From assembly GCF_014646355.1 (NCBI RefSeq), contig NZ_BMNH01000022.1, positions 1-64,000 of the forward strand: DNA of 64,000 nt. The letters are read 5' to 3'. The position numbers and the translations under genes were made by a program. Position 1 is the first letter of the stretch, and each line of letters starts with the position of its first letter. This document shows, in pieces, positions 30,983 to 39,361 of this stretch. The notes beneath the pieces are model-generated. The model was not told where the DNA came from. It ran no database searches and worked only from the letters and a program-made list of their open reading frames with translations. This DNA is from Nonomuraea cavernae. Its GTDB lineage: Bacteria > Actinomycetota > Actinomycetes > Streptosporangiales > Streptosporangiaceae.

Positions 30983-32752
30983 CTAGCGGCGCTGATGCCG
31001 CCCAGGGAACTCACCCATGAGCACCTGCTTGGGCGTGACACGCAGCAGGTCGCCGTCGGCCAGCGCGATGCCGCGCACCTCCACCCAGAACCGGCGTTGC
31101 AGCGGGTCCGCCGCGAACACCGCCACCCGTGGGTCGGTCTCGATCGCCTCCCATGCCTCGGTCTCGGCGATCAGCCTGAGCTCGCCGGACGGCCCGACCG
31201 TCGCCACCGCGCCGACCACCCGGGGTCCCAGGGAGTCGCCATAGGTCAGCACGACGTTCCTGGCGTACGCGAACGCCTGGCGTATCTCGGAGGTCAGCTC
31301 CACGGACGGTTCGGCGCCGACGGGCAGATCGCACATGATCAGGGACGCGCGCCAGGGGCCGGGCGCGCCCCGCCACCACGCGCGCACGGCTCGCAGCGCG
31401 AACACGATCGCCACCGCGCCCAGCGCGCCCAGGCCCGCCCGCCAGCTCCACGCGGAGCCCAGCGTCCCGCCCGCCGCGCAGGCCGCCGCCGCGAGCGCGA
31501 CCAGGGCCGTCGCCGCCGCCAGCCACTTGTCCTCCCGATATCCGGCCCGGCGGTAGGAACCGACCAGCGGGTACGGCACCGCCACGGCGAGCAGCGCCGC
31601 CCGCGGCTCCACGGCCAGCGCGCCGAGCACCAGCGGCACCAGCACCGACCAGGTGCGACCGAGCACGATCCACAGCGCCACCCCGGCGTTCCGCCTGGCC
31701 GTCCGCTCGCCCGCGGCGCGGATGAACTCTGTCAGGGCCTGGACCGGCCGGCCGCGCCAGGTCTCGGCCAGCGCGCGCAGGGCGGCGAGCATCGGCCAGC
31801 CCAGCACGGCGATGGCCGCCAGCCCGGCCCATACCGGGTCGAACGACGACGGCACCCCCGGCACCGTGGCCAGGCCCAGCCAGGCGGCGAACGCGACCAC
31901 GGACACCGCCGCCGACACCACGGCGGTGCCCAGCCAGGGGTCACGGCCGAGCATGCCCGGCACGTACGGCCAGACCCTGATCCGGCGGGCCTGCCCGAGC
32001 GTGAGCGGGACCAGCAGCACCAGCACCGCGAACCCGGCCAGTTTGGCCTCGGTTCCACGGTCGAACCCGAGGGCGGCCACCGCGACCGTGAGCGTGGCCA
32101 GCGCCACCAGGAGGCGGGCCTGACGCGACCACACCTCCAGCGCGCGTCTGGCCCGGCCCGTCTCGCGCGGCTCGATCGGCCAGGCGGGATCGTGATGGGC
32201 GCGGGGGCGGTCCCAGCGCAGCAGGGTGAGGCCCAGGTTGACGCGGGCCTGCGGGTGTCCGGGGTCGAGGTCGAGTGCGGCCCGGTAGGCGGCCGCGGCG
32301 CGGGAGTGCTCGGCGCGCAGCAGGGCCAGATCGCCGTCCAGGACGTACGGGCCGGGCCGCTCGGGGGCGAAGCGGCGGGCCAGGGCCACCTGGTCGAGGG
32401 CCTCGTCCCAGTGGCCCGGCAGCCGGCGCAGAACCGCCGCCAGCCGTACCCGGGCCGGCCAGGAGCCGAGGGCCAGGCGCACCGCCTCCCGGGCGGGCGG
32501 GAGCGCGTCGGCGTCGCGGCCGAGTCGTTCGAAGGCGAGGCTGCTCAGGCGGTGGGCCCATTCGCTGAACGGGTCGAGATCGGCCGCCCGGTGGGCGGCG
32601 GTCAGGGCGTCTTCGGGGCGTCCCGCGTCGAGGCGGGTGACGGCCTCGCGGCACCAGTCACGCGAGGATCCGCCGAAGTTGTCGTCGCCTTTGTCGTCGT
32701 CGCTGTGGTCAGGGCGGTACTGATCGCCTGGGCCGGTACCCACTCTGTCCAT
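30983..32752 (-). CDS. TPR - multipass membrane - split-barrel fusion protein
   Basis: 589 residues in three parts. Residues about 25-185 are TPR-like helical pairs ('ALTAAHRAADLDPFSEWAHR', 'AAYRAALDLDPGHPQARVNL'). Residues about 195-470 hold roughly eight to nine hydrophobic helices. The last 110 residues ('EIRQAFAYARNVVLTYGDSLGPRV' to 'FWVEVRGIALADGDLL') look like a pyridoxamine-oxidase/flavin split-barrel fold. I know no family with this order. The barrel lacks obvious FMN-contact motifs, so cofactor binding is uncertain. The start is uncertain because the ATG at 32752 has no strong ribosome site. The dehalogenase-like gene follows 15 bp after its stop. Confidence 0.65.
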   Translation of the reverse strand: MDRVGTGPGDQYRPDHSDDDKGDDNFGGSSRDWCREAVTRLDAGRPEDALTAAHRAADLDPFSEWAHRLSSLAFERLGRDADALPPAREAVRLALGSWPARVRLAAVLRRLPGHWDEALDQVALARRFAPERPGPYVLDGDLALLRAEHSRAAAAYRAALDLDPGHPQARVNLGLTLLRWDRPRAHHDPAWPIEPRETGRARRALEVWSRQARLLVALATLTVAVAALGFDRGTEAKLAGFAVLVLLVPLTLGQARRIRVWPYVPGMLGRDPWLGTAVVSAAVSVVAFAAWLGLATVPGVPSSFDPVWAGLAAIAVLGWPMLAALRALAETWRGRPVQALTEFIRAAGERTARRNAGVALWIVLGRTWSVLVPLVLGALAVEPRAALLAVAVPYPLVGSYRRAGYREDKWLAAATALVALAAAACAAGGTLGSAWSWRAGLGALGAVAIVFALRAVRAWWRGAPGPWRASLIMCDLPVGAEPSVELTSEIRQAFAYARNVVLTYGDSLGPRVVGAVATVGPSGELRLIAETEAWEAIETDPRVAVFAADPLQRRFWVEVRGIALADGDLLRVTPKQVLMGEFPGRHQRR

Positions 32753-37673: not shown

Positions 37674-38117
37674 ATGTCCCAGCGGATCAACGTGGCCGAG
37701 CTGGCGCCCGAGGCGTACCGGTCGTTCGTCGACGTCGAGGGCTTCCTGCTGCGCAGCGGTCTCCCGCACAGCACGATCGAGCTGGTCAAGCTGCGCGTCA
37801 GCCAGATCAACGGCTGCGGCTTCTGCGTCGACATGCACAGCCGTGACCTGAAGAAGGCCGGTGAGAGCGACGAGCGGCTCTGGTCGGTGGCCGCCTGGCG
37901 GGAGGCGCCCTACTACACCCCGGCCGAGCGGGCGGCGCTCGCGCTGGCCGAGGAGGCCACCCGGCTGGCCGACCGCGAGGCCGTGCCCGACGAGGTCTGG
38001 CGGCAGGCGGCCGAGCACTACGACGAGACGGGGCTCGCGACGCTGGTCGTGGCGATCGCCATGATCAACGCCTGGAACCGGATCGGCGTCGCCACCCGCC
38101 TCGCGCCCGCCGGCTGA
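37674..38117 (+). CDS. AhpD-like carboxymuconolactone decarboxylase family protein
   Basis: 147 residues, all helical. The family redox motif 'QINGCGFCVDMHSRDLKKAGE' has CGFC with His three residues on, as in AhpD-like alkylhydroperoxidases. Cys-Cys with His and Glu supports peroxidase or thiol-disulfide activity rather than lactone decarboxylation. ATG after GGAGGTAGTC; upstream open frame is not used. A perfect 36-bp palindromic hairpin ends the unit. Confidence 0.88.
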   Translation: MSQRINVAELAPEAYRSFVDVEGFLLRSGLPHSTIELVKLRVSQINGCGFCVDMHSRDLKKAGESDERLWSVAAWREAPYYTPAERAALALAEEATRLADREAVPDEVWRQAAEHYDETGLATLVVAIAMINAWNRIGVATRLAPAG

Positions 38118-38123
38118 GCCGGG

Positions 38124-38159
38124 CCGGGCCGTAACGGGCGCGCGCCCGTTACGGCCCGG
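38124..38159. terminator. 36-bp perfect palindrome, strong hairpin terminator
   Basis: Arms of 18 bases (38124-38141 and 38142-38159; core CGGGCGCGCGCCCG) pair completely. It begins 7 bp after the AhpD-like gene stop. There is no U-tract, as is common for actinomycete terminators. Confidence 0.7.
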
Positions 38160-38280
38160 GGAGCGCGGGTCGTGATTCGGACGGCTCCCGGGCGGGAACG
38201 GCTGATGATTCGGGACGGCACCGGACGCGTACGGCGAGACCGTAGAAATGCGTGGAGCCGCGTCCCGGACCCGGACTAGG

Positions 38281-38364
38281 TTGGGCTGCAAGCACTCACC
38301 AACTCCCCGGCAACCGGCGGGGCGCACAGTGAGCCCAGGCCGAGACACCGAGAGGGGGCAGACC
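38281..38364 (+). ncRNA. Candidate structured 5' leader (riboswitch-like) upstream of a 33-residue gene
   Basis: Nested complementary arms can be drawn: TGGG (38282-38285) with CCCA (38334-38337), CTCAC (38295-38299) with GTGAG (38329-38333), and CCCCG (38305-38309) with CGGGG (38318-38322) enclosing GCAACCGG. The 'CGGCAACC...CGGGG' arrangement recalls actinobacterial SAM-type riboswitch cores but does not match one fully. It ends at the ribosome site of the small gene. Confidence 0.35.
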
Positions 38365-38466
38365 ATGAGACGCGTGAGGATCGTCAAGCCGACGGCGAAG
38401 CGGCGTCCGGACCGCGACACGGGCCTGGACCTGCGGTCCCCATCGGGCCGACGGCTTCCCTACTGA
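38365..38466 (+). CDS. 33-residue basic protein of unknown function
   Basis: The frame opens 'MRRVRIVKPTAKRRPDRD' and ends 'SGRRLPY'; ten of its 33 residues are Arg. The ribosome site GAGAGGGGG is very strong and sits at proper distance, behind the candidate leader. It could be a small nucleic-acid-binding protein or a regulatory leader peptide. A longer frame upstream through the leader is unlikely. Not recognised. Confidence 0.5.
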   Translation: MRRVRIVKPTAKRRPDRDTGLDLRSPSGRRLPY

Positions 38467-38539
38467 ATCACTCCTTACACAGAACTTACCCGGGTATCTG
38501 TAGATAACATAGGTAACAAGAACATCACGGGGGGCTCAC

Positions 38540-38710
38540 ATGAAGAGGCTCGTGGCAGTGCCGCCACACGTGTCCAGGCACAAGGTCCGCGACATCCGCA
38601 CCGACGACCGCCACAAGCCGGTTCCCCCCGATCCCAAGATCGTTGACCTGCGCGCCTACAGCAGCCGCAACGTGATCCGCTTCCCCGACGGCCCGCCTCC
38701 CGCGGCCTGA
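38540..38710 (+). CDS. 56-residue basic small protein
   Basis: The frame begins 'MKRLVAVPPHVSRHKVRD' and ends 'NVIRFPDGPPPAA'. It lies 73 bp after the 33-residue gene and has a G-rich ribosome site (CGGGGGGCTCAC before ATG). Composition is basic and Pro-rich with little hydrophobic core, so it may be disordered or bind a partner. The spacer before it is AT-rich (38466-38520, containing TAGATAACAT), which could be its own promoter. Not recognised. Codon third positions are G/C-rich as in real local genes. Confidence 0.55.
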   Translation: MKRLVAVPPHVSRHKVRDIRTDDRHKPVPPDPKIVDLRAYSSRNVIRFPDGPPPAA

Positions 38711-38740
38711 CCTCCGAGCCCCGGCTGTGACGGCCGGGGC

Positions 38741-39361
38741 TCAGCCGTACAACCGCTTGGCGTAGGTCTCGCCGTAGTAGTCCTCGAGCTCTTCGAGGGT
38801 TTCGTCCACCTTCTGCACGTCCTTGACCAGTTGCGCGTGCGAGGGCAGCCGGTCGGGCTCCCAGCGGTCGGGCTTCCAGAGCGACGAACGCAGAAACGCC
38901 TTGGCACAGTGGAAGAAGATCTGCTCGATCTCCACGACGATCGCCAGGTCCGGGCGGTGTCCCTTGGCGATCAGCTCGTCGAAGAACGGCGCCTCCCGGA
39001 CGAGCCGGGCACGGCCGTTGACGCGGAGGGTCTCGTTGCGGCCGGGGATCAGGAAGATCAGGCCGATGTGCGGGTTGCGCAGGATGTTGCGGAATCCGTC
39101 GGCCCTGCGGTTGCCCGGGCGGTCGGGGATGGCGATCGTGGTGTCGTCGATGACGTGGGCGAACCCTGCCGGGTCGCCCTTCGGCGAGACGTCGCAGTTG
39201 CCCTCCGCGTCGGAGGTGGCGATCAGGCAGAACGGCGAGGCGGCCAGCCACTGCCTGTCGCGCTCGTGCAGGCGGACGCGCTCCTTGGTCGCCGAGCGCG
39301 CCTTCACCTCTCCCAGCAGATCCCGCAGTTCGGCCTCGGACCCGATCTCCACCCAGCTCAT
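38741..39361 (-). CDS. MSMEG_1061-family FMN-dependent PPOX-type flavoprotein
   Basis: 206 residues of the pyridoxamine-phosphate-oxidase-like split barrel. 'SPFCLIATSDAEGNCDVSPKGDPAGF' (about 42-67) and 'IAIPDRPGNRRADGFRNILRNPHIGLIFLIPGRNETLRVNGRA' (about 77-119) are the FMN-binding and dimer blocks. 'IEQIFFHCAKAFLRSSLW' near 150 is the family signature. A putative flavin oxidoreductase with unknown substrate. ATG preceded by AAAGGAGCGC. Confidence 0.85.
   Translation of the reverse strand: MSWVEIGSEAELRDLLGEVKARSATKERVRLHERDRQWLAASPFCLIATSDAEGNCDVSPKGDPAGFAHVIDDTTIAIPDRPGNRRADGFRNILRNPHIGLIFLIPGRNETLRVNGRARLVREAPFFDELIAKGHRPDLAIVVEIEQIFFHCAKAFLRSSLWKPDRWEPDRLPSHAQLVKDVQKVDETLEELEDYYGETYAKRLYG

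Follow-up and report, generated by a model that had tools for sequence, protein, structure and literature searches.

The locus analysed here raises the question of whether two very short frames are genuine genes, and whether the DNA before them works as a structured RNA or as a promoter. It lies in a stretch of 64,000 nucleotides of Nonomuraea cavernae (contig NZ_BMNH01000022.1, positions 1 to 64,000), which is called the window below and belongs to a source genome of 8.1 Mb. The preliminary description, made from the sequence without database searches, had read positions 38281-38710 as two mini-proteins of 33 and 56 residues (ORF33 and ORF56) behind a candidate RNA leader. The reading favoured here, with somewhat better than even confidence and on the basis of sequence patterns, is that the locus encodes two small basic proteins, each with a promoter of its own that would be driven by an OmpR-fold activator, most likely a SARP. 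The features concerned are given in the order of their positions.

37674-38117, upstream of ORF33: CMD-family gene (PF02627 match).
38125-38158, no strand: 34-nt perfect GC-rich palindrome following the end of the CMD-family gene, read from the sequence as the probable terminator of that gene.
38253-38282, + strand: putative promoter P1, with a -35 element TGGAGC (38253-38258), an 18-bp spacer and a -10 element TAGGTT (38277-38282).
38288-38316, + strand: three direct repeats with an 11-bp period (GCAAGCA 38288-38294, CCAACTC 38299-38305, GCAACCG 38310-38316), candidate activator box; the array and its fixed gap recur in orthologues.
38325-38330, + strand: second -10-like hexamer, CACAGT, 8 bp past the third heptamer (10 bp in the register used for PimR).
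38350-38358, + strand: ribosome-binding stretch of ORF33, GAGAGGGGG; the same place is purine-rich in the leaders of relatives (by eye).
38365-38466, + strand: ORF33, a 33-aa basic protein, MRRVRIVKPTAKRRPDRDTGLDLRSPSGRRLPY; pN/pS 0.447 among 45 Nonomuraea-group copies.
38475-38506, + strand: putative promoter P2, with TTACACA (38475-38481), TTACCCG (38486-38492), 8 bp and a -10-like TAGATA (38501-38506).
38513-38528, + strand: direct repeat GTAAC-N6-ATCAC just downstream of the P2 -10, a possible site for an OmpR-type regulator.
38529-38534, + strand: GGGGGG, predicted ribosome-binding stretch of ORF56.
38540-38710, + strand: ORF56, a 56-aa basic protein; pN/pS 0.321 among 51 Nonomuraea-group copies.
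38716-38742, no strand: 10-bp perfect inverted repeat with a 7-nt loop, extending as far as the end of the PNPOx gene, which is convergent; probable terminator.
38741-39361, convergent, downstream of ORF56: PNPOx gene (PF01243 match).

Both frames are under purifying selection and behave as real genes. Within the Nonomuraea group, i.e. the same-genus relatives, which are mostly named Nonomuraea but include one named Thermoactinospora and one named [Actinomadura] parvosata, pN was below pS in 985 of 990 pairs of ORF33 copies and in 1274 of 1275 pairs of ORF56 copies, and the third codon position was the most variable one in both frames. Using blastn with 38240-38720 as query, matching DNA, part or whole, was obtained in 34 of the 35 other genomes of the same genus, some matches spanning the ORF56 half only; the sole miss was a genome that is 63% complete. 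The same query gave no match in 23 genomes of other families. A profile of ORF56 matched 125 of the 297 family genomes and 23 of the 68 sampled genera (E ≤ 0.01), and across the class 16 of 394 genomes (E ≤ 0.001), every one of which belongs to the same family. The resulting 169 loci were reduced to 110 distinct loci by removing those with an identical 250-base end. An ORF33 profile match was located at most 400 nt before ORF56 in 94/110 loci, and counts on ORF33 leaders rest on the 90 copies with a usable ORF33 start. The last three residues of ORF33 were LPY in 84 and LPF in 4 of these 90.

The preliminary description was right to call two mini-proteins, and conservation and pN/pS make the case stronger than a reader of the sequence alone could know: the Arg-rich 33-codon frame does have a ribosome site, which is G-rich, and the basic 56-codon frame is conserved and selected as a protein. 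Neither protein was matched by Pfam or NCBIfam (E ≤ 10) or by PHROGs or PADLOC (E ≤ 1). A PDB sequence search gave no match for ORF33; the five short, weak matches for ORF56 (E 0.11-0.14) were taken as chance and discarded. The AlphaFold model of ORF56 was of low confidence and uninformative as to its fold (mean pLDDT 62.9, pTM 0.15). The two proteins share DLRxxSGR, and for a possible common origin hhalign gave a probability of 4.9% and an E value of 0.0082 over 14 columns. In the open-access literature searched, no paper was found for four peptide strings or for the term 'DUF5999', which concerns a neighbour of some ORF33 paralogues; this result and the family-library searches are the basis for regarding the proteins as undescribed. 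In one Nonomuraea record, the gene table of which is incomplete, no annotated feature was present under the ORF33-paralogue and ORF56 matches. As a separate observation, ORF56 was duplicated in tandem within one genome (L190, G185:C65:38842-39360).

The ORF33-ORF56 pair is independent of its CMD and PNPOx neighbours, because these flank only about half of the loci: the CMD gene was found upstream in 53/110 loci and the PNPOx gene downstream in 52/108 testable loci. The displayed loci from other groups than Nonomuraea had no PNPOx in the flank available (0.2-2 kb). The long + frames beyond ORF56 are antisense to the PNPOx and PrsW-protease genes, so that no clear large + gene stands at once downstream; the preliminary description had likewise seen no large gene following in the same direction, and its remark that this is not a usual attenuator was a fair one.

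The leader of ORF33 had been described as folding into nested stems with CGGCAACC and CGGGG elements, reminiscent of actinobacterial SAM riboswitches. Both elements exist as sequence, but the nested stems were not supported, and the resemblance to SAM riboswitches did not hold up, no Rfam SAM match being obtained either at gathering cut-offs or at E ≤ 10. Across the window, Rfam gave no match of any kind at gathering cut-offs, and the five matches at E ≤ 10 on 38115-38760 were all far below the family cut-offs, none of them SAM. The SAM-I, SAM-IV and SAM-I/IV riboswitches presumably resemble the leader in the CGGCAACC-type string only; unlike them, it had no covariance-model match and no conserved stems were found in it. 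Folding of 38265-38370 gave z = +0.94, with 170 of 200 shuffles at least as stable, and RNAalifold, applied to 30 of the 42 Nonomuraea-group leaders in which P1 had been located, yielded -0.23 kcal/mol and 3 pairs, with no compensatory change. The stems that were tested are a reconstruction from the wording of the preliminary description, and they were paired in 54.2% of cells, no better than two of the slid controls (55.3% for a shift of -3 and 53.1% for a shift of +2). Conservation in relatives had been named as the deciding point: both frames are kept in them, the stems are not.

Thus a structured leader or riboswitch was rejected on Rfam, fold energy, RNAalifold and stem pair counts, and we regard it as very improbable that the leader is a cis-regulatory RNA, whether a SAM-like riboswitch or another structured element. 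What speaks for such an RNA is that the window contains short complementary stretches, that the reconstructed stems showed 23 further pair types versus 14-18 in the slid controls (17 of 500 shuffles as high), which was the sole measure favouring them, and that two hairpins of the relatives exceed their slid controls. The first of these, H1, is an inverted repeat of 12 bp that immediately follows the P1 -10 and is shared by most leaders of the 30-member alignment (columns 12-47), with 85.6% of cells paired versus 28.3-44.7% when slid; its covariation was modest, with 6 cells changed on both sides versus 2.3 in shuffles (29 of 500 as high), and the copy in the window is without H1, having lost the 5' arm, where the alignment shows gaps. 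The second, H2, was paired in 79.3% of cells versus 29.3-58.8%, with covariation near the shuffled level. Both were dropped as an explanation on these grounds. In addition, the first two bases of the claimed element (38281-38282) are the end of the P1 -10, and the 5' strand of the outer stem (38283-38285, as reconstructed) would precede the RNA start expected from P1. The leader looks like promoter-like DNA, in which no conserved RNA fold was found.

As to the promoters themselves, the upstream, sigma-70-like P1 type is present in Nonomuraea and, by eye, in some related genera. Of 45 Nonomuraea-group leaders, 42 had a TAGGTT-like -10 recognised by script, and in 41 of these TTGA or TGGA stood at a distance of 17-18 bp from it; the pattern recognised no -10 in the other 3, although L021 among them contains TAGGTT. 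Past P1, the ORF33 leader of the window carries three SCAAS repeats (cores GCAAG, CCAAC and GCAAC) at 11-bp spacing, the third of which (38310-38316) is contained in CGGCAACC. Three CAA at period 11 were counted in 35 of the 90 ORF33 leaders; no leader had them at any other period between 7 and 16, and shuffles gave a mean of 0.04 and a maximum of 1. The intact array was missing from 55/90. The array together with NANAGT at one fixed gap was present in 29/90 leaders, the window included, and these span 10 genera, with 0 in 200 rounds of shuffling. Since orthologous leaders share ancestry, the shuffles overstate independence and thereby the odds. What carries weight is that the bases between the repeats vary among orthologues while the period stays fixed. 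The gap from the repeats to the -10 is fixed as well, at 8 bp with the heptamer written NCAASNN or 10 bp counted in the register of PimR, the -10s being predicted from sequence. Within one genome the pattern SCAASx3 means little, because in the source genome the backwards control (5 sites) exceeded the real pattern (2 sites).

Upstream of ORF56 the DNA is AT-richer, as the preliminary description had pointed out, with a GC content of 0.47 between the two frames versus 0.70 for the window. Here TTA-TTA at period 11 was found in 106/110 loci, other periods giving 0-8, and in 98/110 loci it was followed, at one fixed gap, by a -10-like start (shuffle mean 0.15, maximum 2). The P2 box gave 1 site in the source genome with at most 2 mismatches (control 0), and with at most 1 mismatch one site each in 11 of 13 same-genus genomes and none in 2. 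The backwards control gave 1 site in all 21 genomes, and each real site fell inside the locus located by blastn.

This block bears on a further explanation, in which translation of ORF33 as a leader peptide would control ORF56 by attenuation or translational coupling. The two frames do adjoin, the gap being 73-78 nt in 61 of the 89 measured loci, and the C terminus of ORF33 is near-invariant (LPY in 84/90), as it is in some arrest peptides. However, the gap holds the conserved promoter-like block of ORF56 itself, its length varies over a full range of 45-164 nt, 16/110 loci have ORF56 without ORF33 within 400 nt upstream, and ORF33 paralogues were found alone, without ORF56, elsewhere. We consider control by a leader peptide improbable.

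Between the -10 of ORF56 and its start, GTAAC-N6-RTCAC was found in 63/110 loci and the exact GTAAC-N6-GTCAC in 11/110, and by its sequence GTAAC-N6-ATCAC at 38513-38528 might be where a second, repressing regulator binds. The same counts lend some support to an explanation in which the 11-bp repeats are bound not by a SARP but by an OmpR-type two-component or nitrogen/phosphate regulator (GlnR, MtrA, AfsQ1 or PhoP), the two proteins then belonging to a nutrient-stress response. The boxes of MtrA and AfsQ1 are similar to that of GlnR. For Streptomyces venezuelae the GlnR box is given as GTnAC-n6-GTnAC, with repeats of the same period (PMC10704036, partial text), and to this consensus or gTnAc-n6-GaAAc the window has the near match GTAAC-N6-ATCAC. 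Against such a regulator, GTnAC/GAAAC is not matched by CTTAC and CAAG, the main repeats, and these occupy the position typical of a SARP, next to the -10 and replacing the -35 element. Taken together, we hold this explanation to be rather unlikely.

The preferred reading, activation by a SARP, draws on the architecture of known SARP promoters, in which direct repeats recur at 11 or 22 bp and the 3' repeat lies 8 bp from the -10, with a weak -10 (CACTGT) in the afsS promoter (PMC10936776, partial text). The CAA and TTA arrays both peak at period 11 alone. Since the repeat spacing matches that of SARP promoters, and the gap to the predicted -10 does so in one of the two heptamer registers, a SARP or other OmpR-fold activator is proposed for each gene; and because the boxes of ORF33 and ORF56 differ in sequence, two regulators may be needed. 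Such an activator would bind the direct repeats, one helical turn apart upstream of a weak -10, and would recruit RNA polymerase, switching on ORF33 through the three SCAAS repeats and ORF56 through the two TTAC repeats, while ORF33 would additionally be transcribed from P1 in Nonomuraea and some related genera. By analogy with AfsS, the small-protein target of the SARP AfsR, both proteins might then act as small effectors. SARP binding and the use of the -10s are deduced from these patterns, and the effector role of the proteins from the analogy.

Among described systems, AfsR-afsS of Streptomyces coelicolor is similar in that a small protein is encoded behind 11-bp repeats and a weak -10, CACTGT there and CACAGT here (PMC10936776, partial text), but differs in that the locus here has two proteins whose boxes are unlike each other, and no SARP gene was found beside the pair. 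AfsS itself is a protein of 63 aa with three 12-aa repeats (PMC2267785, partial text), whereas ORF56 has 56 aa, and such repeats were not seen by eye in it or in ORF33, AfsS being compared by its description. The operator of pimM, to which the SARP-LAL PimR binds, consists of three CGGCAAG heptamers with 4-bp spacers, and it resembles the array of the window in the number of heptamers, the spacers and the core GCAAG (CGGCAAC in the window versus CGGCAAG for PimR); the target of PimR is, however, the gene of a PAS-LuxR regulator rather than of a mini-protein, and as far as described its operator is free of overlap with the -35, whereas the array in the window is close to a -10-like hexamer (PMC5930380, partial text for all these points). 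XRE-DUF397 pairs of Streptomyces, as far as the partial source on them goes, are likewise small proteins of function not known in a regulatory setting; ORF33 and ORF56, in contrast, had no Pfam domain at E ≤ 10, and no XRE gene was present among the five scanned neighbours in the window.

Regarding candidate activators, no SARP gene was found beside the pair in the window. A weak BTAD match at 32498-32635 (23.2 bits, cut-off 22.1) was not taken as a SARP, as it lies in a long frame with no further SARP sign. In the source genome, 27 matches to BTAD exceed the family cut-off; this count overstates the number of SARPs, the same model matching 6 of 14 control genomes, including Escherichia coli and Bacillus subtilis.

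Small proteins of fewer than 60 residues are often missed by annotation, and the two described here recur, conserved, in a large part of a family that is known for antibiotics and have promoter signatures resembling those of antibiotic-regulator switches. If the activator were found, it might give access to silent gene clusters, much as AfsR does in Streptomyces (PMC10936776, partial text). The signature of the ORF33 family is searchable and defines a class of tiny proteins recognised by none of Pfam, NCBIfam, PHROGs and PADLOC.

By profile search, ORF33 is part of this wider actinobacterial family of about 30 residues, ending in LDLRTPSGRxLP[YF]-stop. Within the order, the profile matched 223 of 297 genomes and 44 of 62 genera at E ≤ 0.1, a cut-off that admits chance matches; at E ≤ 0.001, matches were obtained in 57 of 394 genomes across the class and in 9 of 396 across the phylum. 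The family was defined here by a basic N terminus and a C-terminal DLR[ST]PxGRxLP[YF]-stop, and ORF33 of the window has both. The residues D, L, R, P, G, R, L and P were invariant in 32 chosen sequences of the family, and a few copies deviate from the signature (L173, L257, L280, L116 and L284). The CAA array was absent upstream of ORF33 paralogues in all 22 regions examined, which speaks against the preferred reading.

Some paralogues are encoded beside regulators. In the source genome, the paralogue MCQTQIRKPKPRTEPVHLDLRTPSGRRLPF (L096:1501-1593, G000:C29 near 94128) lies between a SARP gene, which carries BTAD and Trans_reg_C domains, and a frame that we take to be metK-like, possibly within a biosynthetic cluster. 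The paralogues L127, L129, L124, L131, L154 and L155 adjoin proteins with AAA_16 or NB-ARC (STAND-type) ATPase domains; a LuxR domain was present in 2 of these 6 ATPase neighbours, and the regulator was on the opposite strand in 4 of the 6 cases. Ten chosen neighbours of paralogues were scanned, with no statistic, and 3 of the 10 were non-regulators (DUF1702, isochorismatase, ATP-grasp). Tentatively, and with doubts about as large as those attached to GlnR-type control, ORF33 and its paralogues may be seen as regulatory peptides of about 30 residues with a fixed C-terminal recognition end, several of them encoded beside, and acting with, regulators of the SARP, LuxR or STAND-type ATPase kinds; in Streptosporangiaceae, the ORF33-ORF56 pair would then be an AfsS-like branch in which each protein has a dedicated activator box. 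Beside several of the six ATPase-linked paralogues there is also a small protein starting with MCQ, presumably DUF5999. The subgroup formed by L152, L158 and L161 lies near frames that we take to be universal-stress-protein-like, and L152 is in addition near a frame that appears phosphoenolpyruvate-synthase-like.
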